From NCBI GenBank assembly GCA_032358165.1, contig JAALGY010000049.1, positions 186,001 to 250,000 of the forward strand: DNA of 64,000 nucleotides, given 5' to 3'. The notes under the pieces were generated by a model. That model was not told the DNA's origin. It ran no database searches and worked only from the letters and a program-made list of their open reading frames with translations. A program made the position numbers and the translations under genes. Positions 5,238 to 64,000 of the stretch are shown here, piece after piece (the first letter of the stretch is position 1; each line of letters opens with the position of its first letter). The DNA comes from Diplosphaera chodatii. Its lineage: Eukaryota > Chlorophyta > Trebouxiophyceae > Prasiolales > Stichococcaceae.

Positions 5238-8200
5238 TCAGACACCAAATGCAACAACCACCGAGAAAGTCGCATCGCCATTGTTGAGCAGGACAATTGT
5301 GTCACCCTGGTAGCACGCTGCAACAATGTCAGCAGCGCCATCCAGGTTCAAGTCAGGCGCAGCAACTGCACTCCCGTCACTACCACATCCAGCACCGAGC
5401 AGAATGTCGCTGCCGTATTGAGCAGCAGGCCCATTGGCATCTCCTTGGTATAGCCTCAGAATGCTCGTAGTAGAGGCCAGCAACAGCACAGCATACCCTG
5501 GGAACTCGTTGTTCGGAATCCTAAAGTCGCCCACTGCAATGTGACTAGGCTGTATGTAGCCGCTGGATATGCTCAACGACCTCAGAGGGGATAGCGCCCC
5601 AGTCATGGAGCTGAATGCAAGTACCTTCAAGTACCCAGTAGGTCCATAAGAGGCCGCGACCACCAGCACGGCGTTGTCCGGGGATAGCACCAAGGCAGTG
5701 GGAATTGCGCTGACATCGGTGTCCGTCTGTGTCCCAAGCGCACCAGTGGTTTGGTCGATTGCGTGCACAGCAATCATGCCGCTGCCCTCCGCCGCTCCTA
5801 GCAGCCAGCCCCCCGAGGCGTCGACCACCAGTTGGCGGACGGCCCTTCCTGAATCTTGTGTGTTGATTGCAGAGGCTCCGCCATCTTGATCGAAGCTGAA
5901 CCCAGCTACTCGATTGGATCCGGCCGCATACACACGGTTGGTCCCAGGCATAGCAACCACATGTTGTTGGAATGGCAGGCCATTGCCAAGCGTGCCGGGC
6001 GCAAATGTCCCATCCCCTCCTCCAATCAAGGGCACGAACTCCGTGTTAGCAGAAAAGTAGCTGCCCACTATATCCTGTTCCAGCACAAAAGCAAGGCAAT
6101 GTTGCTGAGTGGACGTGAAGGCATATATATGCACATCCGTATATCAAAGCATCAACGGATCATTTATGCATTGGCGGCAAACCATGATTGCGTTGTTTGT
6201 GCAGGATCTTCTCACAGCAGCTGTTGATGTTGCCTGGTGTTGCAGTGTACGTGGTTGCGCAACGTGAGACTTTGCTTACCTGATTGGGATCGCTGTTGAA
6301 GTCCAACACTGTGAGATCCTGGAGCAGTGCAGGTGTGCTGATGGTGGACCCCGCTCGGAAGGTGCCGTCTCGATTCCCGAGGCAGATGCTGATCTGTCGG
6401 GAGCCCTGCAAGCCCCCACGCCACCCATGATAAGAACTGCAATCTACAGTGGGTCTTTAAGACTGCTGCAATGCACACGAGTCGGTGCCGATGCTGGCTA
6501 TGATGCGGTTGCTGTCGGCATGCTGAGGCTGCTTACTTGGTAGGCAGTGGCAATGTCTGGCACGTTGTCATTGTTTGCCTGCATACCCAGACACATTTCT
6601 CGAGCTCACGTGTGGCGCGGCGCAAATGATCAGAATTCCATCAACAGACACAGCACAATGATCCTGCGCAGCTGCAGCACCATGACTCACGACAACACCA
6701 TGACTTACATCAAGTATGGCCAATGCCACCAGGCCGGTACCGCTCTGGCATGGAAGCACCACTGCAAACAGCTCAAAGGCCGTCACGCTGGCTCACTGTG
6801 CCTTGCTGAAGCAGCCGTGGCCCAATACATGTATACATACCTTGCAAGCACCAAAGGCTCTACCACTGCTCACCAGGTGGAGGCGCAGGCGGCGGCTGTG
6901 GCGGAGGGCTGGGCGGGGGCCTTGGCGGTGGGGATGGCGGCGGTTGTGACGGCGGAGGCGGTGGGGGATTCGGAGGCGGTGCTGGAGGTGGTGATGGTGG
7001 CGGCTGTGGCGGTGGGCTTGGCGGGGGCACTGGCGGCGGGGACGGCGGCGGCTGTGGTGGGGGGTTCGGCGGCAGTGCTGGAGGTGGTGATGGCGGCGGC
7101 CGTGGCGGCGGGCTTGGTGGGGGAGCTGGTGGTGGGCTTGGCGGGGAAACTGGCGGCGGGGATGGCGGCGGCTGTGGTGGGGGGTTCGGCGGCGGTGCTG
7201 GAGGTGGTGATGGCGGCGGCCGTAGCGGCGGGCTTGGTGGCGGAGCTGGTGGCGGGCTTGGCAGCAGATGTGGGGGGGGCCTTGACGACGCTTGTGACGG
7301 AGGGCTTCGTGGGGCCTGTGGGGCTGGACTTGGCAGAGGCTTTAGTGGCAGGCTGGGCGGTGGCCTCGGTGGCGGGCTGCGTTGTGGCATCGGTGGTGGA
7401 GACGGAGTGGGCAGGCCTGCAAACAGTGGCCACTGCAATGTCCACCAGAGTCGCACTGCACAGCTGTAACATGCACCCTGCTTGCTATCGGAACAGATGA
7501 TCATGTTCGTCATGGAGGCAGGCCTTCGAGTCATCTCAGCGCCTCAGCCTCTGCAATTATGCAACATGTGTGCTCAATGGAAAGGACACGAGGAGCACTC
7601 ACTGCAAGAGGTCCTGGCTCGATTCACAGTCCCGCCAGCTGGGCAAACACTGCAGAGTAGCGGGGCATGTGACCACGACACTGGCGTGTAAAGCGCTGCT
7701 ACGCAATGTACTACATGTTGATGTGTCAACGAGCAACCATGAGGTGCGTGACCATGTACTGCAGAGTGGCAGGCTGATCTTGCAGGTGCAACCGTTGCAG
7801 GACTCACACCTGCAGGTTGTGGCTCCGACGTGGCTGGAATACCGCTGGCCGCCATGCTGCGTGCCAATGCATGCGCTGCAGAGGAAGTCTCCACTTCCAG
7901 CCTTGGCAGTACCTGCATCCCACGGGCACGTTCCTGCCAGACAGCTGACAGGCTAGGCGTAGAACATGCAGGCATAATGCCACACGCCGTCGGCCTATAC
8001 AGCACTGTGTGTGTGTGCGGGCATCTGCAAAGCTGCTTGTAGCACAAGTAGACAGCAGGGCACAGCTCACCTGCCGGGCAGCGTGTGCGGCTTCCATCGC
8101 GACCCGGCTCTGTGCCGGGCGGGTAGGAGAAGCAGGAGGTATGTGCGGCGTTCACTCTGCTGCCTCGAGGGCACGCCAGGCACATGCGGGCGCGGTATTT

Positions 8201-8719
8201 GGGCTGATACGTGCGCCCGCTGCACTTGGCGCACTTGCCACTGGCAGCTGCAGGTTTGGCGCTGCCAGGAGAGCAAGGCTGCGCCTTGCCGGACCTGTCC
8301 AACTGATAGCCTGGCCCAGGCACGACTCGGCAGCGCTGAATGGCGTACGCTTTGGCATCGCGCACCGCCGTGCAGCAAGAGTCCCTGGCGCTGACCTTGC
8401 GCACGGTCGAGTAAGTGCACCGCAGGCACTGCGCCCCGTGTACCTTGACGCAATTTGTCATGTAGCGCTCCAGCTCGCTGCAGCGGCCCTTGCCAGCTGC
8501 AGACTGCGCCTCACACCGCTTGATGACAGCCTCAATGTCAGCAGAGGGCGGGCCGCCGATGCTGTGCAGCTGCCGCGACTGCCGTGCGCCGTTGGCCACT
8601 GCTGACCAAGGCGACCTGATGACGGGGGCCATACCAGAGACCCCGCCGCCGGCGGTGTCGACTGTGGAAGCACTGTTGCCGCCGGTCGTGAGCAGGGCAA
8701 TCACCAGCGCCAGCGCCAT
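5238..8719 (-). CDS. secreted Cys-rich / hydroxyproline-rich / FG-GAP repeat protein
   Basis: Predicted extracellular matrix protein, 799 aa, eight exons (high to low): 8719-8071, 7912-7810, 7649-7603, 7416-6874, 6761-6709, 6578-6537, 6405-6280, 6074-5238. All phases agree and the total is 2400 nt. Residues 1-20 form a signal peptide (MALALVIALLTTGGNSAS). Residues about 35-266 are Cys-rich, with GCC2/GCC3 (ephrin-receptor-like) modules: CLACPRGSRVNAAHTSC, CPAGTAKAGSGDFLC, CSVCP then GGTVNRARTSC. Residues about 267-447 are an almost pure SPPP/PPP spacer, expected to be hydroxyprolinated and O-glycosylated as in algal cell-wall HRGPs. Residues about 448-799 are FG-GAP/VCBS-like repeats (LAILDANNDNVPDIATAYQ, LGNRDGTFRAG, APDLNLDGAADIVAACYQGD), which usually form a calcium-binding beta-propeller. 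The Met at 8719 is chosen because it starts the signal peptide; the frame stays open upstream without homology. It shares a divergent promoter with the deacetylase gene. Confidence 0.88.
6874..7416 (-). repeat. proline-rich low-complexity exon (SPPP)n
   Basis: A single exon of 543 nt made of degenerate GGCGG[CT]-type units on the + strand, encoding SPPP, APPP, NPPP, QPPP and RPPP units on the minus strand. It joins the Cys-rich and FG-GAP parts of the protein. A similar block recurs around 7160-7050 and 7290-7160, indicating internal duplication. Confidence 0.8.
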
Positions 8720-21972: not shown

Positions 21973-24900
21973 TCACGCGGCCAGCAGCAGCAGCGTGGCG
22001 GCCGCGGCGGACGCCAGCGGCAGCGCGAGCGTAGCGGCGAGGCCGGCCGCGGACTGGGGGGTGCCCCCCAGGTTGTCGATGACGTCGGCGGTGGGGCCCG
22101 CAGCGGCAGCGGAGTCGGAGTCCGGGCTGGCGGCAGAGGCGCCGCCACCGGCAGCAGCGCCGCCGGCACCGTCACCTATGCAGAAACAACAGGACTCGGG
22201 TGACCGCCATAGGAAGCGTCAGTAGGTGTCTAGGTGGAGAGGTCCAGGTGGCGGACGCTTGCCAGCATGCCAGAAGGCTTAATTGGCCGCTGAGCTGCAC
22301 CAATGCGATGCACCAATGCGATGCATAGCAGCACCCGGCCTTGTGCCAGGCGTGGCCTGTGACAGGTTGCAGCGAACCGCTGCAGGAGTGATCAGGAGGC
22401 GTGCGGCTGGTGCGGGCATGCCAGACAGAACGGCAACTGCGGCAGCTCACATAAAGCGAAAAACCCTAAACCCTAACCCTAGCAACTGCGGCAGCTCACC
22501 TTCCTCCCCGCCGGGGGCGCCGGCAGGGGCGCCGGCGGGAGAGCCCGAAGGGGATCCCGCGCCTCCCGCCGCAGCAGCGCCTGCGCCGGCCGCCGCGGCC
22601 GCCGCCCCGGCCGCCAGCCGCACCGGGACCCCCGTGCCGTTGAACGCCCTGCCCGACAGCGACGCATCTGCAGCATGCCAGAGACCCTGGGGATTGAGTT
22701 TTACGACACAGAACAACACAGCAACGACAACGCAGCACAACACAGCAAGAACTACAAGAATACAACACACGTTGCATGATGGCGCTGCAATGAGATCATG
22801 CATGCGCTGAGCTCGCTGCGTCACATGCTCGGCTACAAAGATGTGACCAACCTGTGATGTTGACACCGTTGTCTCGGTTGACGATGATGCCATTTGGTGT
22901 GACGGCCACCACCGGATACGCAGTGCCAGTCACGCCTGGAACAGTGCAGTACAGTGCCGTCAGTCACTCAGGGGCTCAGCAGTGTGAACCTGCAGCTGCA
23001 GGAAGCGTTACGCTCGATAGTGCGCTTGGCGTCAACGTGCTCAAGCGATCGGTGGTCGCCACCTGTGCCGGAGTTTGTGGTGCCGTTGACCAGAATCGCG
23101 CCAGGGCCCAGGTTCCCATTGGCGGCGGATCCAGTGGCGCCCGTCGCGTTGAGCGCCGTGCCATTGGTCACACGGCCATCCAGCAGCACCTGCAGCAAAT
23201 GAGACACTGCACTGTGTGACGCTGAGGATGCGCATGCCACCTGATGTGGCATCCTTTTGCCTCTGCATGTCGCCAGTCCTGAACTGACCGCATGGCCTGA
23301 ACTGAATGCATGGCGGTAGGTGAGGCCACCTAGCTTGGCAGCACAAAAGACAGGGACAAGCGAGACGATTCTGCTGAACACACGACCGCCAGCACAAAAA
23401 AGCTGATCTTGAGCTTTGGCAGCAGCCAGAGCTATTCTGTCACGAGATTTGGCCTCTCAGTGCAGCAGGGCTTCGCCAGCCACTCACCGGGCTGCCGGCG
23501 GTCGTGTTGAGCGTGCCGTCGGAGTTTGCTGCGATGGCGGCGCCGAAGCCGCCGGCGGCCACCACGGTGGACAGGATGCCGTTGGTGCCGTTGAGCTGGC
23601 GAGTATCGTTGGCGCCCGCCACGGCCGGCGTGGCAGTCACGTTGCCGGCGTCGAATGCGGTGCCATTGATGACGGCACCTGCAGGGGATGCGCAGATACT
23701 GGCATACTCAGCAGGAGCCTTGCGAGCCCTGTGATCCTGCTGGCATCCACGAGGCGCTTTGGTTGTTGCACACTGAACGTGCTGCGACAGCCGCTGGTGG
23801 CTGCCATCCATGGGCGTAAAATGCTGCCAGCAACAGGACTGCAGGACGGGCAGCTACAACTTGTGTGGCTGAACAACATGTGTCAGCAACAGGCAGGTGC
23901 GTCCTCGCCTTCCAGCGGCGTGGTGGCGTTGGTGAGCTGCGCGCCATTCGCGCCGAGGGAGCGCACCAGGGTGGCCGTGCCGTTCACACCACGTCCGTCC
24001 TGCAAATGGGACGGCATGAAAGTGGAGTGCAAAGGACAAAGCAGCAACAGACGTGTGCCTGGTTGTGATGGTAGCAATGCCAGCTAGAGCTGGCATCCGA
24101 AGCTCACCCAGAAGAGCAGCAGCAAGCACGGACAGCAGATAGCAACAGCACATAATAACGCTTGCTGGCAGAGCAGTGGGTGCCAGCCATCGTGCATGCA
24201 GCTGTGCTGGCTGTAGGACCATGCACCTGTGCGCTGCACATTCGGGCACCTGCACTGTACTGATTTTGGTCACCTGCACGGTGCCGTTCAGGAAGATGAG
24301 GCCCGGCCCCAGCGCGGGCGCAGTCTCGTTGCTGCTGCTGCCGGAGGTGGGCACCACGGTGCCTGTGTGAGAGACGCAGGTTTCTGAGTCAGTAGTGACT
24401 GAGTCATGTTGGAGAGACGCAGCTCGTTCAAGCTCAATTGCCCAGAAGCCCTGGAGCTGCTTTGCTAGTGACAGACAGTACGATGGAGTGTCAAAGCTGA
24501 GCATCTGCCACACATTGTCGGGGCAGAAACTCTGATCAGCGGACCTGCCAGCAGGACGGGCCCAGATGTCGACAGGGTGCCGCCGGTGCCATTGCCCGTC
24601 AGCGCTGCGCCAGCAACACTGCAGCAGCCATGATGCACACATGAGCTCAGTCTTGCACGTCACAGCACTGCCAAGCAGGGCTGTATACCCTGCAGGCTCC
24701 ATATGTGGTTCGGTTGTGCTGAAGCACAGTGGCAGTTCACCGGGGCAGCCTCTGGGGCCGAACCTGTAGAAGATTGTCATACATATGCAGCACATGACTC
24801 ATGGAGGATATAAGGCAATCAGCACTGCGCCGACCACAGGATTGCGGACACTCACGCAGCTGCCACGCCGGCTGCTGCGCCGGCCGCGCCTGCGGCAGCT

Positions 24901-27900
24901 GCGCCACCGGCCCCACCTAGCCGCGCTGGAATGCCGGTCGCGTTCAGGGGCGTGCCCGCCAGCGTCGCGCCTGCGCAGCGTGCAACACATGCCTTACAAG
25001 GCCCAGTTTGAAGAGACCATGTGGACGTGAGTCAGTGTGCATGCAGGTGAGGACACCATCACTGGTGGTGGAAACAGTCTGGGGTCATTTGAACGCTGTC
25101 AGGGCACCACCTGTGATATTGACGCCGTTGTTCCTGTTGACCACGACACCCCGCGGCGTCACGCTCACCACAGGGTAGGCTACGCCGCTCACCCCTACAA
25201 ACCACGCAATTCCAGTTGTGTGTTGCGGCACGGCGCACTGAAGATGTCGCCATAGGCATGGTGAGAGAACCAGAGTGTCTCAGTCGGCGCACAAGGCAGC
25301 CGACCTGCTCCAGAGTTGACGGTGCCATTCACAAGGAGGGTTCCGGGGCCTAGGCTCCCCCTGGCGGCAGCTCCAGTGGCGGCGGTCGCATTCAGCGCCG
25401 TGCCGTTGCTTACTGCGCCGTCCACCAGCAACACCTGCATTGATGGGCCACGAGCGTCAGCCTCCCTGAAGAAAACATCAACGCATCATCATGCAGGTGG
25501 CGTGGCAGCCCATGCCAACTGCTCCACCTACAGCACACCCACCGTAATCTAGCTGCCTTGCTTCCATTGGTCATGTCACTCGAGCTGTATACGTTCGCCA
25601 CACAAGCCTCTGACGATCACCGTTTGCTCATGACCCGCTCAGAGACTACAGCAAGACGAGCTTGCCGCCTGGCTCACCGGGGTGCCGGCAGTCGCATTGA
25701 GGTCGCCGCCGGCGCCCGTTGCGAGGGCGGAGCCGAAAGCGCCAGCGGCGGCGGCCGTCGACGGGCTGCCGTCGGCACCAGTGACTTGCCGTGTGCCGCC
25801 GGCGCCCGTCGCCGGCGTGGCCGTCAGGTTTGCGGCATCAAAGCCAGTGCCGTTGATCGTGGCGCCTGTGCAGTAGGGCTTGAACGCTTAGCTGTGACAG
25901 GCCGTGCGGTGACTGCCGCCAGCAGCATTTGGCACAATCCTTCGGGTACTGGTTGAAGTCGGCTCCTGGCGGTGAGGCGCTGGCAACCACTTCGGCATGC
26001 AGACATCACGTGGCAGGTGCTACACCCAGTGCCCAGCTGCAGGAGATGCCGTTGCTGATGTGTGCCGAGACAACAGAGCTGCAGGTCGTCACAGGTAGCC
26101 TATCCTCTAGCAGGACCAGTCCAACATAAAACGCGAGCGCTACAGCAGAGCCGTCAGAGCCCACCTGCCAGTGGTATTGTCACGTTGGTGAGCTGTGCGC
26201 CGCCTGCGCTGAGGGAGCGCACCAGGGTGGCCGTGCCGTTCACGCCGCGCCCACCCTGCAGTGTATGGGAGGTGCAGCCCATCACACTGCGGCACCATGG
26301 GTCTTTACTGCAAGGCGTGCAGCTGCACGGTGTGCTGCCGGGGCCGGAGACTGAGAGACGACAACCGTGATCGATAATCAAACCGGGCAGTTCTTTAGGC
26401 ACAGCCAGCTGTCATGTTGGCAGCGGCAGCAAGTCGCACACCGCGATGCAGGGCATCAAGGTCGCTATGAAACGCGCGGCTGCCGATGGGCCACGAGCCA
26501 AGAAGTCTGCCACACACCTGCACAGTGCCGTTTAGGTAGACGAGGCCCGGTCCCAGTGCGGGGTCGGTTGCATTGCCGCCGCCGCGGGGGGTCACGGTGC
26601 CTGCAGCAGTCGGCAGGCGCACACCGCTCAGCATCCCACGATGTGTCAGCAGTCGCTTCGAGCAGGCAGCGTGCAGCCAGTGCAAGCCGACACTGTGCAT
26701 GCAGCGAGATGAGCCTGCGGGTGGCGGACCTGCCACCAGCACGGGGCCAGTTGACGACAGAGAGGTGCCCCCGCCGAGTGCCTGGCCGGCAGCCCTGCAG
26801 TGAAGACAGCATATCTAGGTTTGCACACATCTTCTTGTCATACCCAACTCCACGTTTCGTCCTTTCAGTGGTGCGGTGAGATTGGGCAGCTGAGGCACGG
26901 CATGCCAGGCACATCTGCGCAGTGATTGATTGCGTATGCTGCACGCAGGCATGCACTGCGGCCGTGACTGAGCGCAGGACTGCAAGGTCTCACGCTGCTG
27001 CCGTCGCGGCGGCCGCGCCGGCAGCCGCGCCGGCTGCAGCGCCGGCAGCAGCGGTGCCGCCAGCCCCACCCTGTAGCCGCGCTGGGATGCCGGTCGCGTT
27101 CAGGGGTGTGCCCGCCAGCGTCGCGCCTGTGATATTGACGCCGTTGGTCCTGTTGACAATGACGCCCCGCGGCGTCACGGCCACCACAGGGTAGGCTGTG
27201 CCGCTCTCGCCTACGCACCACACATGTTCAGTCGCATGCGGCCACACGGCACGCTGAAGTTCTCCCACAGGCACGCTGAGAGCAACCGGAGTTGGCATGC
27301 AGCGCAGCAGGCAGCAACCTGCTCCGGAGTTGACGGTGCCGTTCACAAGGAGCAGCCCGGGGCCTAGGTTCCCCCTGGCGGCGGCGCCGGTGGCGGCGGT
27401 GGCGTTAAGTGCCGTCCCATTGGCCACACTGCCATCCACCAGCAGCACCTGAGCGGATGAGCAGCATGATTCTGAGATGGGGGCCATGGTAGGCAGCTGC
27501 CATGGCAATTGGCACGCTGCCGCCTGGCCTCCTGTGCAGGCTCTGCCGCGCCGTCAGCGGCCAATCGCCCCAGCTTCGCAGCACCGCGAGATGCATCCTC
27601 ATCGTGCGACCACACCGCCGTGGGCTCGCCAGTAGGATACAGTAGCTGACGAGGGTTCAGTCGTGCTTGACTCACTGGGGTGCCGGCAGTCGTGTTGAGA
27701 GTGCCGTCGGGGTTTGCGGTGAGGGCAGAGCCAAATGCTCCGGCGGCAGCGGCGGTCGACGGGCTGCCGTCAGTGCCATTGACCTGCCGGGTGCCACCCG
27801 CGCCCGTCGCCGGCGTGGCCGTCAGGTTCGCGGCGTCAAAGCCGGTGCCGTTGATTGTGGCACCTGCACGCCGGAGTCTGGATGCTGACATCTGTGCGCC

Positions 27901-30900
27901 TTGCAGACGGTTTGCCGCCAGCAGCGCTCGACACAACCTCGGGGCAATGGCTGAGGCTGGCGGCGAGGCGCTGTTGACCACGGCGGCATGCATACATGAC
28001 ACGACAGGTGCTGCACCCAGTGTCCAGCGGCAGGAGCTGGCATTGCTGATGTGTGCCCTTGACAACAAAGCGGCAGGTCGTCACAGGTAGCCGATCCTCC
28101 AGCAGGATATGGACACGGACATTCCAGCAGCGTGCACTCTAGCGCCACAGCAGCGCTGTCGGAGCCCCACCTGCCAGTGGGATTGTCACGTTGGTAAGCT
28201 GCGCGCCGCTCGGGCTGAGGGAGCGCACCAGGGTGGCCGTGCCGTTCACGCCACGCCCACCCTGCATTGATTGAGCTGTGCACTCCGGCGCACTGTCTAG
28301 AATCATGCGTCCTCTGCAGCACGGCATGCAGCCGCATGGTGTCCTGCCAGGCTTGCAAGCTGGCGGCGCGCCGGCTCAGCGAGACAGGGCAGAGACTGAG
28401 GCAGAGCCAGCTCCATGGTGGGGCAGCTGCTGCAGGCCACATGGTGGAAGGCTGAGCACCGAAGCTGGCTCTGAAACATGCGGAAATCGATGAGCCTCCA
28501 ACAGCCCTGTTGCACACCTGAACACTGCCGTTCAGGTAGACGAGGCCGGGCCCCAGCACGGGGTCGGTTGCGTTGCCGCCGCCGCGGGGAGTTACGGTGC
28601 CTGCAGCAGTCGGCAGGCGCAAATTGCGGTCCGTCCCAAGTCTTTGGTCAGCGCACTGTGCAGTCTCCAGTTCTGTCCGCCATATACGCATTGACACTTG
28701 TTTGAAGCAAGCAGCATGCAGCCAGTGCAAGCTGACAATGTGCATGCAGCGAGAGGAGCATGCGGCAGGCTGACCTGCCAGCAGCACGGGGCCGTTGGAT
28801 GATAGAGAGGTGCCACCGCCAAGGGCCTGGCCGAGAGCTCTGCATTTCAAGTGGAATCATACACTTGTATGCAGAGATGGTTCCTTCGTTCCACACTCCA
28901 CCTCATGCGTTAGTACCTTGAGTGACGCACGGCATGCAGGACATGTGCATGCTTTGAACGGCCAGTGCATGCTGGGCGCTCGGCCAGCCATTCAGGCTCA
29001 GCCGCTGACTGACATCAACTGCATCATGTGGCCAATGTGGCCAGCACACCCACCCTGCAGCGCCGGCGCTGGCGCCAGCGGCTTACCTCCGGGGGTACCA
29101 AACGCTGTGGCGTTGTTCGGCCACCTGCAGCCGCAGCAGCAGGGTGATGATGAGCCCTTAGGTGCACCACAGACGCCCTGCCTGCAACTGCGTTAGTGGT
29201 GCCTGCTCCTCATGCCCTTGCTTTACACAGGGGGAACGCCAAGAAGTGTGTGGTGCGAGCCTCATTCCTGATGCAGCCTCTGCACCTGCACGGTGCCGGC
29301 TGCAATCGCGGCAGCCAGGCCGCCGGGGGAAGTGGCAGTGGCGAGGTTGGTGGGAATGGTGCCACCAAAGACTGCACCCCACGGAGTCAGGTTTAGTCGG
29401 TCCACACTCATGGCATACCATAGGACAGCATCAGCAGCAGCTGCAGTGGTGCGGCGCCACAGCAGCTTGAGAGCATGGCGTCCTAGCACGGCAGAAGCAC
29501 TGCAGGGAGGCGCACATGCGGCGGCCTCGGGCGTCTGCGAGAATGGGGCTGCGCGCAGCAGCACGTCAATCTGCAGCCCCCGGCATTAGGCGTCAGCAGC
29601 GCCACTGCATGTGAGGGCCAAGTGACGGCCAAGATGCATGCCGGTGCTGCTTTTCAAGGCATTCCAACTTCGGTGAATGGCCAAATGGCAGTGAGCAGAC
29701 GTGGTGGACACCCCAACAGCGCACCTCATACAATGCCAGGCCGCAAACCCGAACCACGTTACGGACACGACCCACGTCCCGGGTGTAAAGCCCCTGGGCG
29801 ACTGTCTGCATGGGGCGAATATGTTGTGCACATTCAGCCGGATTGTAATCACATGACCAACAAGGTCCTCGCATTGCTACCATATGCCACGGAAGATCGA
29901 GAAAGTCCTGCTGTGACAACCCCCGGCTTGCACTGAGAGCACAACTGCTGCCAGCTCCCTCCAGCGCTGCAGGAATCAGCGCTGCAAAAAATCCCATACT
30001 CACAAACCTGCCCCTCCCAACCCAGATCGTGCCCGACCCTTTCCACCAGAATGACAGCTGCAGTGCCGGGCACTGGCGGGAGCCAGCACACTGAGTGCTG
30101 CCGCACGACTCTGCACACCAAGGGCGATCAGGACGCACCACCCCGTTGGTGTTGTTGACGAACACGGGTATCGTGATGTTGGTGCCGTTGCCCGCGGACA
30201 CAAGTGCTCCCAAATCACTCTGGAGCGGCGACGCCGCCAGCAGCTGCGGCACAGTGAACGCGGTCCCCTGCAGAAAGACGGAAACACACTCCCGATCTGC
30301 ACGGCAACCTCAGGGAGAACCTGCTGGCCAGTTTGGGCACTGCCTCCGCTGCCAGCGGCCACATGCAATGGCCCGTGAGCTCTGCGCGCAAGCCAGGGTG
30401 CGCATACCTGGTTGAGAAGCGAGTGGTATGCCAGAACGGACACCATGCGGGTGCCGTGCACGGCCACCAGGCGCTGCGGACTGACATCTGCAGTGAATCA
30501 GCAAGGCGCTCTCGCCAGCAGCAGCGCACACTAGGAGCATAGCAGCCGATATGGTGTGCAGAGGCCATGTCATCAGGAGACAGGCTGCAAGGTTTCGAGA
30601 AGGTCAGTCCTGGCATTCCGGCAGATTGCTTCGATGTGCTTCGAAAGCCGCGACCAAACACAGTTTGGCAATGTGGTGGCGCGCATTCCAGCAACTCACG
30701 CAGGGACCGGAAGGCCCGGTTGGTGGGCAGCAGCAGTGTGCCCGGTGTAGTGGAGTCCGGCAGCAGGTAGGTGGCGTTCAGCAGGTTGATCAGCGCCAAG
30801 GTGCCGCTCCAGTTGGGGTTGTCAGCGATGGCAGACACGATGTCGGCCCGGGTGCAGTTGCTCGGCTGCGTGCAGCATATGGACAGCGTCAGACGACAGT

Positions 30901-56137: not shown

Positions 56138-59100
56138 ATGGCTTCCGGAGCCAACGAGCTGCGCATCAGCGACCTGCAGGGCGCGGTGCAGAAGGACTCA
56201 CCGGACGTGTACGTCACGTTCCGCCTGGGCAATGAGCACGCCGAGACCCCGGTGCGTGCCGGCAACTCATCGACAAGCTGAAAACTCCGCAGCGATGCCC
56301 AGCAGCCTAAACGCATCACGTGTTCAGCATCAGTGAGCATTGTGCTGCTGTTGGCCGGCAATGTCGTACGATGTTAGCCACACCCTGCCGCGGCCATCCA
56401 CTGCAGGTCATCCAGAATGCGGGCGAGACGCTGCACTGGACCGAGCCCATCTCCATTCCCGCCAGCAGCGCTGGCAGGGACACTGACACCCTGATCGTGC
56501 GTCGCTCGCTTCCTCTGCTCACTTTCAAGGACTCCGTATGATGCACTGTTGGCAAGCTGCCAGCAGACAGCAAGCCCAATCCCTGTGCTTGCCACTTGCT
56601 GGCCATCGGGTCATGACCCTACTGGCATCGATCTAGCATTCGCTTTCATTTGAGATCCCGCCTGCACCTCCTACCTGTGCTACGTCCTGTCAGGCTACTT
56701 ACACACGTGACGTCACCCCGCTGTGCAGGTGCGCGCCTATAACAAGCAGTCGCTGATGCCGGACACGCTGCTGGGCGAGGCGCGCGTCAACCTGTCCGAG
56801 CAGTCCCTGGGCGACAGCACCGTCGCGGGATCCGGCGGCGGCTCCCATGTGCAGGTGCGCTTTGCCTGGTGTGGACTGCTACCTGGCAGAATGTTAGAGA
56901 GAGAGCCTGGAGCAGTCTCCGGCGCAAAAGCTGTGCGCTCCAGCTTTTGCTGCGTGGCGAGACCCTACAGCAGGACACCTGTGCTGTCTTGCGCATGTTC
57001 CAGGTGCAGCTGCTGGGCAAGGGGAGTGCGTTCGGCGGCGAGCTGCGCTTCACGTTGACCAGCACTGAGGGCCTGTCAGGTGCGTGCACTCTGTGCCTGC
57101 CTTCAGCAACAGCCCTGGGTAGGGCACACATCTGTGTGGTGCTCATGGTGTCAGCCGTTGACCAAGCCTCCACCTCAGTTTGACAGCTGCAGCAAAGCAC
57201 TGCATCGCAGCAGGGCTCATTGACTGTTGCCTTGACACACGTAGCGTGCAAACGATTTGGTGTGGACTGCATATGAGCTGGCCTGCAATCCTTTTGCCAT
57301 GCTGCATGCGCCTGTTCATCAAGTGCTGCTACTCCTATACCGCTGGGTGCCAGGCTGCACCATCACTCAGTCGGATAGGAACAGCTCCGTGCACTGGTTC
57401 CACTGCATTGCGACAGCCCTCATCAGGGTGCATGCCCTCTGTGTGCTGCAGTGCCGGGCGGCACGACGTGGGGCCCACAGGAGGTCCATGACAAGGTGAG
57501 CCTGGATCACTTGCCAACAGTCGCAGTGCACAGCAGTTGCACTGGCTGGCTGGTCTCGCCCTACAAACACACCTGCAAGGCATGCTGCTGCGCTGCCAGT
57601 GCCAGCAGCACGAGGGTTGCTTCAGCCTGGCACCTCGTCGACTTCCACAACCCCTGACCCGTCAACTGCAGGACACTGCGGGCGTGCACGGCACGACAGG
57701 GTTTGGCGGCGGCGGCGCGACGGCGCGGCCCGCCGAGGAGGCCGGGCGCGACCTGAAGGGCGAGCGCCTGTCGGACTTCGAAGGCGGCGCGCAGCAGGTG
57801 ACGCACCACCCCTGGGCACAATGCCCAGCTGACGCATGTTGGGTGGGGGACAGCGCCGAGTTGCCGGTGCTGCTGTATGCCTCACCATAGCGCATCCTTG
57901 ACCTGCACATGAGGGTTGTAGTAATTGATTTCAATTACTACAACCCTTTCATCACAGCCCAGTCTGCCTTGAGCTGTTGAAGTGCAGCATTGCTGGTCTG
58001 CATCCTGACACCTAGGCCCCTTGCCATCCCTCTGCTCGTTGGTATGGCGGGTCAGCTGACATTGGGACCAGCATGCTCCTGTGTACAGGGGCAGCAGGGC
58101 GGCATAGTCGGCATGCTGAAGAGCGCCGTCGGCTATGGCCCCGGCGACAGCAGCACCACCACCACGACCTCGACCACGGTGGGCATATAAAAATGTGTCA
58201 AAGGTCGAGCGTGCCTGCCTGCAGCCCTGCTCAGCGTGCGACAACAGCACAGAGGAACAGAGATGCAGGCATGGCATCTTAGGGCACGTCTCAAACTGAG
58301 GGGTGCAGCTGTGATTTGCGCAGAACCAGCCGACCATGGTTGACAGGCTGAAGGACACAGTTGGTATGGGCGGCCCAGCATCCACCACCGACCCGGTACC
58401 CACTTGACCTCCTCCCCATTACGCGCCCATGCTACCTGCAGATCTGCAGGCGCGGCATTTTGGGGCACATTACAAACTGAGGGGTGCGACTGTGATTTGC
58501 GCAGAACCAGCCAACCACGGTCGACAGGCTGAAGGGTGCAGTCGGCATGGGCGGCCCTGCATCCACCACTGACCCGGTAAGCACTTGAGCTCCTCCCCAC
58601 TGTGCACCATCGTACCTGCAGAGCTCTACTGCTAGCATGGCATCTTAGGGCACTATCTTGAACTGAAGGGTGCAATGCTATTCTGCAGAACCAGCCAACC
58701 ACGGTGGACAGGCTGAAGGGTGCAGTCGGCATGGGCGGCCCTGCATCCACCACTGACCCGGTAAGCACTTGAGCTCCTCCCCACTGTGCACCATCGTACC
58801 TGCAGAGCTCTACCGCTAGCATGGCATCTTAGGGCACTATCTTGAACTGAAGGGTGCAATGCTATTCTGCAGAACCAGCCAACCACGGTGGACAGGCTGA
58901 AGGGCGCAGTCGGCATGGGCGGCCCAGCATCCACCACTGACCCGGTAAGCACTTGAGCTCCTCCCCACTGTGCACCATCGTACCTGCAGAGCTCTACTGC
59001 TAGCATGGCATCTTAGGGCACTATCTTGAACTGAAGGGTGCAATGCTATTCTGCAGAACCAGCCAACCACGGTGGACAGGCTGAAGGGCGCAGTCGGCAT

Positions 59101-62100
59101 GGGCGGCCCAGCATCCACCACTGACCCGGTAAGCACTTGAGCTCCTCCCCACTGTGCACCATCGTACCTGCAGAGCTCTACTGCTAGCATGGCATCTTAG
59201 GGCACTATCTTGAACTGAAGGGTGCAATGCTATTCTGCAGAACCAGCCAACCACGGTGGACAGGCTGAAGGGTGCAGTCGGCATGGGCGGCCCTGCATCC
59301 ACCACTGACCCGGTAAGCACTTGAGCTCCTCCCCACTGTGCACCATCGTACCTGCAGAGCTCTACTGCTAGCATGGCATCTTAGGGCACTATCTTGAACT
59401 GAATGGTGCAATGCTATTCTGCAGAACCAGCCAACCACGGTGGACAGGCTGAAGGGCGCAGTCGGCATGGGCGGCCCAGCATCCACCACTGACCCGGTAA
59501 GCACTTGAGCTCCTCCCCATTGTGCGCCCATGGTACCTGCAGACCTGCTAGCATGGCATCTCAGGGCATGTCCCAAACTGAGGGCACGTTTTGAAATCAG
59601 GGTGCAAACGTGATATGCGCAGAATCAGCCAACCACGGTTGACAGACTGAAGGGCGCAGTCGGTATGGGCGGCCCTGCGACCACCACCACCACTGACCCG
59701 GTGACCACTCGAGCGCCTCCCCATTGTGCGCCCATGGTGCCTCAGACCCGCAGGTATGGCATCTTAGGCCACATCTCAAAACTGAGGGGTTCAATTGGGA
59801 CATGTGCAGAATCAGCCAACCACGGTGGACAGGCTGAAGGGCGCAGTCGGCATGGGCGGCCCTGCATACACCACTGACCCGGTAAGCACTTCAAGCTCCT
59901 CTTCATTGTGCGCCCATGGTACCTGCAGACCCTGCAGGCATGGCATCTTAGGCCCCAACTCAAACTGAGGGGTGCAGTTATGACATGCGCAGAATCAGCC
60001 AACCACGGTCGACAGGCTGAAGGGCGCAGTCGGCATGGGCGGCCCTGCGACCACCACCACCACTGACCCGGTAACCACTCGAGCGCCTCCCCATTGTGCG
60101 CCCATGGTACCTGCAAACCCTGCAGGCATGGCATCTTAGGCCCCAACTCAAACTGAGGGGTGAAGTTATGACATGTGCAGAACCAGCCAACCACGGTCGA
60201 CAGACTGAAGGGCGCAGTGGGCATGGGCGGCCCAGCATCCACCACCGACCCGGTAACCATGCGAGCTCCTCCCCATTGCGTGCCCATGGTACCTGCAGAC
60301 CTGCTAGCATGGCATCTGAGGGCACATCTCAACTTGAGGGGTGCGATTGTGATATGCACAGAATCAGCCAACCGTGGTGGACAGACTGAAGGGCGCAGTC
60401 GGCATGGGCGGCCCTGCATCCACCACTGATCAGGTGACTGTGCCAGTTCCTCCCCATTCTTTCTCTTCTTCTTCTTCTTCTTCTTCTGCTTCTTCCATCG
60501 TTCCGATAGATCTGATGTATGTGTCAAGGGTGCCGCTCTCTGGTCTGCTCACCTGAGACATGCTACTCCATCGCTGTGCCCAGCGTCAGCCTTAATTTCT
60601 GCTGACGGTTAACTGGCAGCTAATGGAATGTCACTGGAACAGGCATGGTTGTAGCAGCATGGTGGGTCCTGTACAAAGCAGCAGCACATGGCAACATTGC
60701 TCTGCTGCCTGCAGGGTGTGTCCAGCATGGACGAGCCGGGGCAGGGCCGCGCCGGATTCCCCAGCGAGTCGACCAGCGACCCAATGAGCACCGAGAGCGG
60801 CACCGGCTACACCGGGCAGCCAGAGAGCACGACTGGGTACCCCACCCAGCCTGATGTTGGCACTGGCTACACCGGGCAGCCAGAGGGCACCACTGGATAC
60901 AGCACTCAGCCTGACACCACGACAGACTACAACACCCAGTCTGACATCGGTACCCAGGTGCATCGATACACCAAACCATGCCAGTGTACGCCCGTTCAGA
61001 TACATAAGGTCCCAGGCTTCACTGCACAACCAGATGTGGACCTGGGCTGGCTAGTAGGACATGGCTTGCAAAGCCGCCACTGGTTGACACAAGCACTGGC
61101 ACATGCCACTTGCAATCAAATGGCACACCACCTGGCAGTCTTGGCACGTTGGGTTTCACTTCAGCAATGGGAATCTGGGATGCAGGGTATTGAGGGCGAG
61201 ACGGCAACGCTCCGCAAGGGCCCCACGACCGTCCGCAACACCGGCGACACAACCACGGAGCAGCCCATGACTGGGTACTCGACCGAGCCCCGCTCAACCG
61301 GCATGCAGGTGTGGCCGTCACCCATGCAGCAGCGGCCCTGGTGCACCCTTGGCATCGGGTTGCAGCGTTGCAGTTGCAGCACTGTACATTGTGTGCCGGG
61401 GAAAACCCAGACGGGCTCCTGACCAAGCCACCACCAGCCTGCAGCACAGATGCAGACGGCATGCTCTTCTCGGCCGCAGGGCACCACTGGAGAACTGACG
61501 ACGGGCACGCCGGTTGGTCTGGCGTCCGGCGACCCCCAGTACGAACGCGGCACCGGCGGCGACGAGATCCGGGGCGCTGGGCCCTACTCCGAGGGGGCGC
61601 CCGAGCACCACGGCAAGAAGGTAACTCTCCTCCCGATATTGCTGGCTTAGCCCTGTCAATTTTTTCAGATACAGGGGCGCTCCATCAGCTGCAGAGCGCC
61701 ATCCATGCCTGGCATACAGTGCTGTCTGCTGTGCAACGCTCAAGCCACGCCTGCTGCAAGAACATGACACTGTGGGTGGTCTGGTGCAGGGCGGCATCGG
61801 CGAAGCGGTTCGCAATGTGTACGGCTATGGTGGCGGCGACAGCGTGACCACTGACAAGGTGCTGCTCCCTCACCATCTCCCTCCCTGTTCTGGGCAACAG
61901 CTGTCGCCTTCGTCTGCCTCATCATAGTGGCAGCACAGATCTTATCACATGCATTCAACACTGACACTTGTCAGTTGCAACGGCTGCGTCTCGCTCATGA
62001 ACTATCCTCCTCGGGCACTACCTGGCACTCGCAGTCTGGCAAGTGAGACAGTGTGCCACCCTAAGCAGTGTGGACTACAGGGTGGGCTGGGCAAAATGGC

Positions 62101-64000
62101 CGGCGAGCGTGTGCATGAGGGCGCGGCCGGCACCGGGCCGTCCTCCAGCGAGGTGCGCTTCAGCCCACCAAACGTTGGGTTTCAGGGCCATGCTGTTTCG
62201 GGTGCATCTGCATCGGCACAGCTGTATCCATCATTGGCAGTCGCCAGTCACCGGTCATATGCATTCACCTGGCTCTGTGCTGTGGAGAGGCAGCAGTGCG
62301 GCCTCTTGTAGAGGCTGGTGCACCTGATCGCGGACTGTCGCGTGTCGATCTTGATGCTCAGCAGACTGCACAGGGGCGTGTGTGACAGCTGCTAGATGCC
62401 ATTTGCAGGACAAAAAGGGTGGCGGCATCGCTGAGAAGCTGCAAAAGGTTATCGGCTTTGGCCCCGGCGACAGCATTGTAAAGGATAAGGTGACAGCTCA
62501 CTGGGTCGAAATCAATGATGATGCAACATCACGTTCGTCAGCCCCTTATGTGCTGAGCACCTCATGCTGTTTGACCTGCGAACAAACAGCTGCATCGACA
62601 GACCCTGCGACTGCATCTTACTTGCAAATTGTTTGCAATGGCACCAGCTGCAGTCTAGTGCTGAATGTGTGGCATGGGCTCTTGCTGCAGGACGACAAAA
62701 GCACCGTGGTGGCAGGGGTGGATGTGACGAAGCAGCCCGGGACCGAGTACGGGTCTGACCGGCGCGGCACCGACACGCAGGTGTGGGAGCATCCTCATGT
62801 CGACCTGAGCTGGGAAACAGAGTTGTCAGCAGCGTCCACTTGTGATCTGATAGGCTCCTGAAACCCTGGACTACAGTAGATGTGACGACAGGGCCCCCAC
62901 TTGTGCCCGCCGCTTGCTGCAGGGTGAGGGTCTGGCGGACAAGTTCAAGAGCGCGGTGGGCCTCGGCCATGACCATGACCAGGTGTGTCGGCCACTTTCA
63001 GAGGCTGTTACTTATGTTCGCTTTCAGCGCTGCATGCCTGTGTGCACATCTGTGCACCTGTTTCAGTGCGTCTCAGATGTGGGCGTGGTGGCTGCTGCAG
63101 GGTGGCGCTGGCAGGACGGGTGAGCTGCGCACCGGCGGCTATGAGGTGGGGAAGCCTGCACTGAAGCTGCTGATTTTGTGGACAGAAGTCGGGCGCAGGG
63201 CAAGATGCATAGCTTCTCCAACATACTCCCTGGGGCCCGGAGTCTCCGGCTCGGAGACCAGTGAGGTACTGAACCGTCTGCAGCATTCGGTATCAGCATC
63301 TGACATGTCTTCTTGTGATGCCTGCTGCAGACGAGGGGCGATGTTGCGACGGCGCCGGGCGCTGCCCCGGGAGCCGCGTACACCACAGCCGGCTCCACGG
63401 CAAACACCGGCGCAATCGCAGCTGGCGGCAGCGGCTACGGCACCGCAGCATCCAAGGGCTACGGCGACGGCCAGACCGAGGAGCAGCGAAAGGTTCGGCG
63501 GCTTCTCTCCAGCACACGCTCATTCGGCCTGCAACACAGACATCTTGCCGTGCTCCGCAGCTGCCTGCCAGTGCAACTGATGGGAGCAGCACGTCCCATG
63601 TCAGCCAGCTGCAAAACCTGCACGTTTCATGACTACTGCGACCCGTTGCCGAGGGTGGCACTGAACATGCCCGCAGGGCGCGTCCTACCTGGCGGCTGGC
63701 GTGGCCGGCATCACCGGCGAGGGCGGCCGGGACACTGCTGGCGCCCCTGGCAGCGGCGGCACTGGCATTACTACCACCGAGACTGCCACAGGCACCGGTA
63801 CGGGTGGCATGACCCCAGGCGCAACCGCGACCGACGCAGGTGAACAGCTCACACCCCTTCTGGCTACAGTAGCTCAGGACATGGCACCTCCGTTAGGCAG
63901 TTGGCTGGTCCCAGCACACGTGCATTGCTCTCCTGTTCGTTCCACCCTCCGGCGTCACAACTTTGTGGCACTTCAGCGGGCAACAGGTGCACCGGCCAAG
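56138..64000 (+). CDS. C2-domain protein with long exon-modular repeat tail (3' partial)
   Basis: At least 930 aa. C2 and linker exons: 56138-56251, 56407-56496, 56729-56854, 57004-57079, 57452-57495, 57672-57797, 58089-58178. Then twelve tandem exons from 58324 to 60433 (listed under the repeat), then 60715-60957, 61186-61308, 61480-61620, 61790-61858, 62081-62152, 62409-62489, 62691-62780, 62923-62982, 63101-63145, 63331-63492, 63677-63839, leaving in phase 1 with the rest outside the window. Residues 1-135 are a C2 domain (PDVYVTFRLGNEHAETP, NAGETLHWTEPISIP, LIVVRAYNKQSLMPDTLLGE, GELRFTLTSTEGLS). The tail repeats an amphipathic motif: GMLKSAVGYGPGD, VDRLKGAVGMGGP, IGEAVRNVYGYGGGD, IAEKLQKVIGFGPGD, LADKFKSAVGLGHD. 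A TGYTGQPE/TGY[PS]TQPD repeat lies between. The modules recall LEA-type amphipathic helices; the function is inferred as membrane or stress related. Confidence 0.85.
58324..60433 (+). repeat. array of twelve tandem exon-intron units (~184 bp)
   Basis: Exons: 58324-58395, 58505-58576, 58689-58760, 58873-58944, 59057-59128, 59241-59312, 59425-59496, 59623-59700, 59810-59881, 59993-60070, 60181-60252, 60362-60433. Each is 72 nt (two are 78 nt) and begins and ends in phase 0. Each encodes NQPTTVDRLKGAVGMGGP plus a short ASTTDP-type end. Copies 3 to 7 are spaced exactly 184 bp apart and are almost identical, introns included (GTAAGCACTTGAGCTCCTCC ... TATTCTGCAG), so they are the most recent. The outer copies have diverged. 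Minus-strand reading frames of 117 codons across the array are shadows. Confidence 0.93.
60465..60487 (+). repeat. (CTT)n microsatellite in an intron
   Basis: About seven to eight CTT units just after the last tandem exon's donor, in a pyrimidine-rich stretch of the intron 60434-60714 of the large C2 gene. Confidence 0.85.

Follow-up and report, generated by a model that had tools for sequence, protein, structure and literature searches.

This report concerns a gene of the green alga Diplosphaera chodatii that starts within a 64,000-nucleotide (nt) stretch of DNA, here called the window (positions 186001-250000 of contig C42, in a genome of 85.57 Mb and 55 contigs), and that carries twelve tandem copies of one short exon. 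Considering the evidence as a whole, we think it probable that the gene encodes a C2-linker-C2 protein, the linker being a flexible modular spacer made up of phase 0 exon cassettes and the C2 ends docking on membranes. Within the limits of gene models drawn by hand (from splice borders, reading frame and comparison with a sister gene on contig C44, rather than with a gene finder), the plan of the gene and the comparison of its array are firm; what is said of the cell biology of the double-C2 protein is inferred.

Gene plan and the twelve-copy exon array

Modelled from the window together with the adjoining stretch L010, which supplies its 3' part, the C42 gene has 37 exons (56138-66814, plus strand) and encodes 1256 amino acids, laid out as a C2 domain, a linker of ~950 residues and a second C2 domain. 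It overruns the window end at 64000, exons 31-37 lying on L010, and its introns measure 109-500 nt. Pfam was run on four spliced pieces of the protein, comprising both C2 ends and two pieces of linker, so that most of the linker lies outside the scan. PF00168 matched the N-terminal domain (residues 10-96, E 2.3e-7, 31.4 bits) as well as the C-terminal one (E 5.4e-8, 33.4 bits), in each case above the cut-off of 22 bits. The N-terminal C2 domain proposed in a first-pass annotation of this DNA is thus confirmed by profile search. The repeat region behind it, taken there for the tail of the protein, is instead a linker because the gene ends in a second C2 domain past the window. In the two linker pieces scanned, Pfam found no convincing domain; a Cas_Csa5 match in one of them (25.7 bits, cut-off 23) covers 15 residues, has no stretch that passes on its own, and was dismissed as chance. 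Searched against sequences of the Protein Data Bank (PDB), the second C2 domain matches At3g55470 (PDB 5yq3) alone, at E 0.032, and for the first no match up to E 0.1 was found. An exon of the second C2 domain (C2B), used as a query against the genome, finds two loci only, on C42 and C44.

The exons are mostly multiples of three and in phase 0, as the annotation had said. The window contains 30 exons. A length divisible by three is found in 27 of them, all except exons 4, 5 and 30 (76, 44 and 163 nt); the 36 introns of the full model divide into 31 in phase 0, five in phase 1 and none in phase 2. With the twelve introns that follow array exons set aside, phase 0 is found at 19 of 24, a proportion to be read with no genome-wide baseline for comparison and with the caveat that duplicating a symmetrical exon itself yields symmetry.

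The array comprises twelve phase 0-0 exons at 58324-60433, each with AG upstream and GT downstream, so that all the tandem copies of the 72-78 nt exon announced by the annotation could be located. The cassette, 72 nt long in ten copies and 78 nt in copies 8 and 10, encodes 24 residues with the repeating motif QPTxVDRLKGAVGMGGPA. From copy 2 to copy 7 (58505 to 59425), one start follows another at exactly 184 bp, which extends the exact period by one copy beyond the claimed 3-7, and the near identity reported for the central copies holds, with array introns 2-6 being 98-100% identical. Tandem Repeats Finder describes the array by a period of 184 with 11.7 copies (score 2195) and by a 368-bp double (score 2581); the second-best tandem array in the window scores 415 only. 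The near-identical copies 2-7 point to recent turnover of the array, and the alternation at two synonymous exon positions along copies 3-7 (T/T, C/A, C/A, T/T, C/A) suggests block duplication of several units. Used to search the genome, the array unit hits C42 in twelve places and C44 in a single exon. The window is without an Rfam match at gathering threshold, and a phage origin of the array unit was rejected, no match being found.

During this turnover the array peptide appears to have been under purifying selection, because differences among the copies are mainly synonymous and exon identity exceeds intron identity. Array introns of copies 1, 2 and 8-11 are 73-92% identical in the 15 listed pairs, and in 14 of these the exons are more alike than the introns, the exception being copies 9/10. 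The ratio of nonsynonymous to synonymous differences per site (pN/pS) is 0.13 over all 66 pairs; restricted to copies 1, 2 and 8-12 (21 pairs, with 109/404 synonymous and 50/1108 nonsynonymous sites differing) it is 0.17. The pairs are not independent, gene conversion is ignored, and two Thr codons, in copies 8 and 10, were removed ahead of the count.

Cassette turnover between two gene copies and a relative

The sister gene on C44 has 27 exons, 1014 amino acids and three array copies. It sits with the C42 gene in a collinear, inverted block (window numbering 7809-66858 vs C44:158902-212487, 59 vs 54 kb), and the introns of the two genes are ~70% identical; the pair therefore represents an old duplication or the two subgenomes of a hybrid, not alleles. 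Fourteen whole-exon differences separate the two genes. Each of these exons is divisible by three in length and falls within the linker; the C2-domain exons pair one to one. Particular to C42 are nine extra array copies and exons 22-24 (141, 69 and 72 nt); particular to C44 are two exons (93 and 75 nt), placed where C42 has a 176-nt intron (57496-57671). The two C44-only exons were most likely lost from C42, since material of both is held by a relative, P0001. No alignment of exons 22-24 to C44 or P0001 was found, so that they may have been gained in C42 or lost elsewhere. In trees, the twelfth C42 copy and the third C44 copy group together with a support of 0.99 (exon plus intron) or 0.82 (exons alone); the position of the first array copies differs between the two trees. 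Synonymous divergence (dS) between the genes is 0.23 for the first C2 domain (C2A, 4 exons), 0.41 for the paired linker exons (14 exons) and 0.33 for C2B (3 exons), the corresponding nonsynonymous values (dN) being 0.066, 0.138 and 0.113. Amino acid identity ranges from 0.50 to 1.00 across the 14 paired linker exons.

P0001 is an uninterrupted open reading frame (ORF) of 876 amino acids on a 3211-nt contig and has the same C2-linker-C2 plan. It aligns from one C2 domain through to the other and is unbroken at positions where the C42 or C44 model has a junction (TPYL|VFEV, ELH|II, EEQRK|GA and TGFQ|GGGATAF are examples); three related motif units stand in it in series, 26 and 25 residues apart. 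Provided that the contig is cDNA, this speaks for the frame, for the splicing plan and for serial use of the motif. Together with the mainly synonymous differences among array copies, the crossing of junctions indicates that the annotation had chosen the right reading frame. Protein searches that scored ~8000 candidates sharing most words found no relative besides P0001, and one of the searches that found it had P0001 itself in the query. An alignment search with the N-terminal part found no relatives, P0001 being too long for its length range, and among prokaryotes and viral contigs 73 and 37 pattern matches included none. Comparison of two anciently diverged copies and one relative thus supports the view that whole phase 0 exons have been gained and lost without damage to the frame. 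The system for changing length that the annotation envisaged stands to this extent, as whole-exon gain and loss between homeologues (12 vs 3 copies).

Elsewhere in the genome, a six-frame search gave 56 matches to the chlorophyll a/b-binding family, and light-harvesting matches of near-equal score occur on contig pairs such as C10/C37, C17/C45, C26/C27 and C14/C24. Such pairs, along with the ~70% identical collinear block, look as if two diverged subgenomes were present; one source (PMC12636532) refers, in its available part, to allodiploid hybridization in the green alga Auxenochlorella. Collinearity ends just 3' of the gene in the stretches compared (66858 = L010:4858 / C44:158902), and the downstream neighbours differ.

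Table 1. Positions of the features of the C42 gene in window numbering
Feature	Position	Strand	Basis and remarks
Exons 1-4, N-terminal C2	56138-56251, 56407-56496, 56729-56854, 57004-57079	+	Pfam PF00168; 4/4 paired on C44; P0001 spans junctions
Exons 5, 6, linker start	57452-57495, 57672-57797	+	C42/C44/P0001 comparison
Exon 7, first divergent motif (GIVGMLKSAVGYGPGD)	58089-58178	+	Gene model, motif analysis
Array copy 1	58324-58395	+	Gene model
Array copy 2, begins the run of six copies spaced at exactly 184 bp	58505-58576	+	Gene model, intron identity
Array copy 3	58689-58760	+	Gene model, intron identity
Array copy 4	58873-58944	+	Gene model, intron identity
Array copy 5	59057-59128	+	Gene model, intron identity
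Array copy 6	59241-59312	+	Gene model, intron identity
Array copy 7	59425-59496	+	Gene model, intron identity
Array copy 8 (78 nt)	59623-59700	+	Gene model
Array copy 9	59810-59881	+	Gene model
Array copy 10 (78 nt)	59993-60070	+	Gene model
Array copy 11	60181-60252	+	Gene model
Array copy 12, groups with last C44 array copy	60362-60433	+	Gene model, trees
Exons 20, 21	60715-60957, 61186-61308	+	Gene model; exon 20 with internal 30/60-nt repeats
Exons 22-24	61480-61620, 61790-61858, 62081-62152	+	Missing in C44 gene, matching intron there 114 nt
Exons 25-28	62409-62489, 62691-62780, 62923-62982, 63101-63145	+	Divergent motifs in 25 and 27
Exons 29, 30	63331-63492, 63677-63839	+	Gene model; gene runs on to 66814
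Exons 34-36, second C2 domain	On L010, past window	+	Pfam PF00168

The internal repeats of exon 20 are of GTGYTGQPE type and constitute a second repeat process on a smaller scale. Further repeats and duplicates occur in the remainder of the window. Positions 6899-7284 hold a G-rich repeat of GGCGGN-type units (periods 24, 48, 96 and 120). The stretch 6875-8445 has related copies near the homeologue (C44:151619-153022 and C44:156400-157151) besides the collinear one, and within 22850-28627 related C42 stretches match one C44 region several times, probably through local tandem duplication inside the block.

Linker properties and competing explanations

The linkers consist to 63-67% of G+T+S+P+A+Q, with 21-23% Gly and a grand average of hydropathy (GRAVY) of -0.34 to -0.67. 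An AlphaFold2 model of P0001, computed from an alignment with six window stretches, has a mean predicted local distance difference test score (pLDDT) of 44.6 and beta-rich ends; helix or strand is absent between residues 142 and 687, and the linker (144-267, 269-685) stays below a pLDDT of 50. The ends are predicted to adopt a beta-sandwich fold at moderate to low confidence (pLDDT block means 31-82), and a Foldseek search with them returned 39 C2 matches with E <= 0.001, led by Itch, dysferlin C2A and CAR4. Judged from composition and model, the linker is likely disordered. Divergent versions of the array motif, which the annotation had noticed in other exons, are found in exons 7, 23, 25 and 27, and motif versions recur in C42, C44 and P0001.

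C2 is a fold that usually binds membranes. Judging by that fold, membranes or anionic lipids are the most likely docking sites of the two C2 domains. The linker (G/T/S/P/A/Q-rich, ~540-950 residues) would form a flexible spacer between them, and the phase 0 cassettes from which it is assembled are small and for the most part symmetrical. Whole cassettes would be added or removed when repeated exon-plus-intron units undergo slippage or unequal crossing-over, which is safe for the frame because most linker exons are 0-0, and such turnover may have brought the C42 array to twelve copies and its homeologue to three. All twelve copies would be spliced into one mRNA. The array motif, apparently held by purifying selection, probably serves as a site of weak contact with lipid or a partner, so that spacer length and motif number might adjust the reach and the avidity of the link between two C2-bound surfaces, with the double-C2 protein bridging membranes as a tether or adaptor. 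Only tentatively, as a proposal we would expect to fail more readily than to hold, could one go further and see here an unnamed family of double-C2 tethers with a modular ruler as spacer, in which distance and avidity evolve rapidly, possibly varying by strain or splice form, while the ends stay fixed.

Several observations weigh against the modular-spacer interpretation. A six-frame search of the genome with PF00168 lists 15 places, none of them at the C42 gene or its C44 sister, presumably because each domain is distributed among several short exons; the C2 calls therefore rest on spliced models. The calcium ligands look incomplete by eye when set against what we take to be the canonical pattern. 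The C2 domains are no tighter in dN/dS (0.29 and 0.35) than the alignable linker exons (0.34), though their dN is lower, and what sets them apart is the unchanged exon set and the alignment with P0001 rather than dN/dS. P0001 itself is known only as an ORF on a contig, for which cDNA or intron-poor DNA are both possible, and the low pLDDT of its model may reflect an alignment of seven rows. On the disorder check that the annotation proposed, composition and model agree with disorder, but charge-hydropathy is borderline for the linkers of C42 (0.426 vs 0.425) and C44 (0.430 vs 0.433) and puts that of P0001 on the ordered side (0.462 vs 0.433). Finally, the amphipathic character that the annotation ascribed to the motif is weak: the common array motif has a hydrophobic moment (muH) of 0.253, a value reached by 31% of shuffles. 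All ten motif versions lie above the shuffle mean, yet just one beats 99% of shuffles, and a strong amphipathic helix was rejected on that ground.

The same data can be explained without any benefit of length, if linkers of any length are tolerated and the array arose as a side effect of unequal crossing-over between short exon-plus-intron units that resemble each other. Expansion to twelve in one homeologue only, the spread of identities among the paired linker exons and the recent turnover seen in copies 2-7 are all compatible with such neutral expansion. Against it speak the motif residues, which are kept while introns and synonymous sites diverge, and the recurrence of motif versions in both genes and in P0001; we consider it unlikely, if not strongly so. 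The array might alternatively be a splicing device, in which regulated skipping gives graded linker lengths or exons are chosen one at a time. Its twelve exons are interchangeable in phase, and read-through into the following intron meets an in-frame stop in 10 of the 12 array introns (at codon 4 in seven), so that intron retention would be mostly unproductive and skipping harmless. The three motif units that P0001 carries in series nevertheless argue against one-at-a-time choice, and mutually exclusive exons were rejected for this reason; the splicing device as such appears distinctly improbable.

The annotation's comparison with late embryogenesis abundant (LEA) proteins leads to a further possibility, that the linker is a dehydrin/LEA-type protectant against desiccation or freezing, tethered by C2, and the motif a diverged K-segment that folds on membranes. 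The glycine content and negative GRAVY would be in keeping with it, and green algae are reported to possess proteins with K-segments, among them one of K12 type in Myrmecia (PMC11763121, seen in part). Scored with an ad hoc matrix made from four published K-segments, the motif of exon 27 reaches 18.2, a score attained by 6 of 86052 background windows (its own included). The common array unit, by contrast, scores 4.8, and the best K-segment score is reached by 10% of shuffles of the C44 linker and by 39% of those of the P0001 linker, the two that this comparison covered. A PF00257 match is absent from the four C42 pieces and from the genome, though in the genome 14 controls likewise gave none, and, as far as the available portion of an earlier survey goes, K-segment matches were not found in seven green algal genomes (PMC5415607). 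Lacking a dehydrin match and significance against shuffles, the LEA-like label is not supported; dehydrin or K-segment identity is kept as a rival only, and as a poor prospect.

Relation to known systems

No named family combining C2-linker-C2 with the motif was found in Pfam (the four pieces), the protein searches or the open-licence literature. Extended synaptotagmins, ferlins and multi-C2 tethers likewise have at least two C2 domains per chain, and C2A domains of plant E-Syt1 and of dysferlin are in the Foldseek list; Pfam matched neither an SMP nor a ferlin domain in the four C42 pieces, with most of the linker outside that scan. Small plant C2 proteins are single C2 domains and are not known to have a repeat-built linker. 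They (At3g55470, CAR4/CAR1 and PP16; PMC10931576, seen in part) share the C2 fold with the present ends, CAR1/CAR4 being among the top Foldseek matches and At3g55470 a weak sequence match to the second C2 domain, the first having none. Parachlorella CDMT1 is another algal C2 protein, and its knockouts are described, in the available part of the source, as near wild-type in growth and lipid (PMC10916037). Dehydrins have in common with the linker a low-complexity chain, rich in Gly and Thr, in which short segments containing Lys recur (accessible parts of PMC5415607 and PMC11763121), but differ from the protein in that it has C2 domains at both ends and is without a PF00257 match or a significant K-segment score. 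The micro-exon genes of schistosomes similarly contain series of short exons (3-81 bp); they encode secreted parasite proteins and have introns to 5 kbp (PMC10526429, excerpted), compared to 109-500 nt here.

Tandem exon duplication and exon arrays are already known, and strong amplification in one ohnologue finds its closest described counterpart in Piccolo b (pclob) of teleosts, where a zinc-finger exon is present at 8-16 copies in one of two ohnologues and exons are gained or lost singly, for which the author invokes unequal crossover (PMC3484663). In the part of that paper available, the author was unaware of another teleost case of extensive domain amplification in one ohnologue only. The likeness lies in a tandem exon array at high number in one of two duplicates (12 vs 3). 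Different from Piccolo b are the unit, a 24-residue linker motif without predicted structure, the photosynthetic host, and the other homeologue, which is already at three copies. The array of the C42/C44 genes looks like a comparable case outside animals. With 12 vs 3 cassettes on the same plan in the same genome, and with matching C2 exons, the pair offers a natural experiment for testing directly if the length of the linker or the number of motifs matters in a double-C2 protein.

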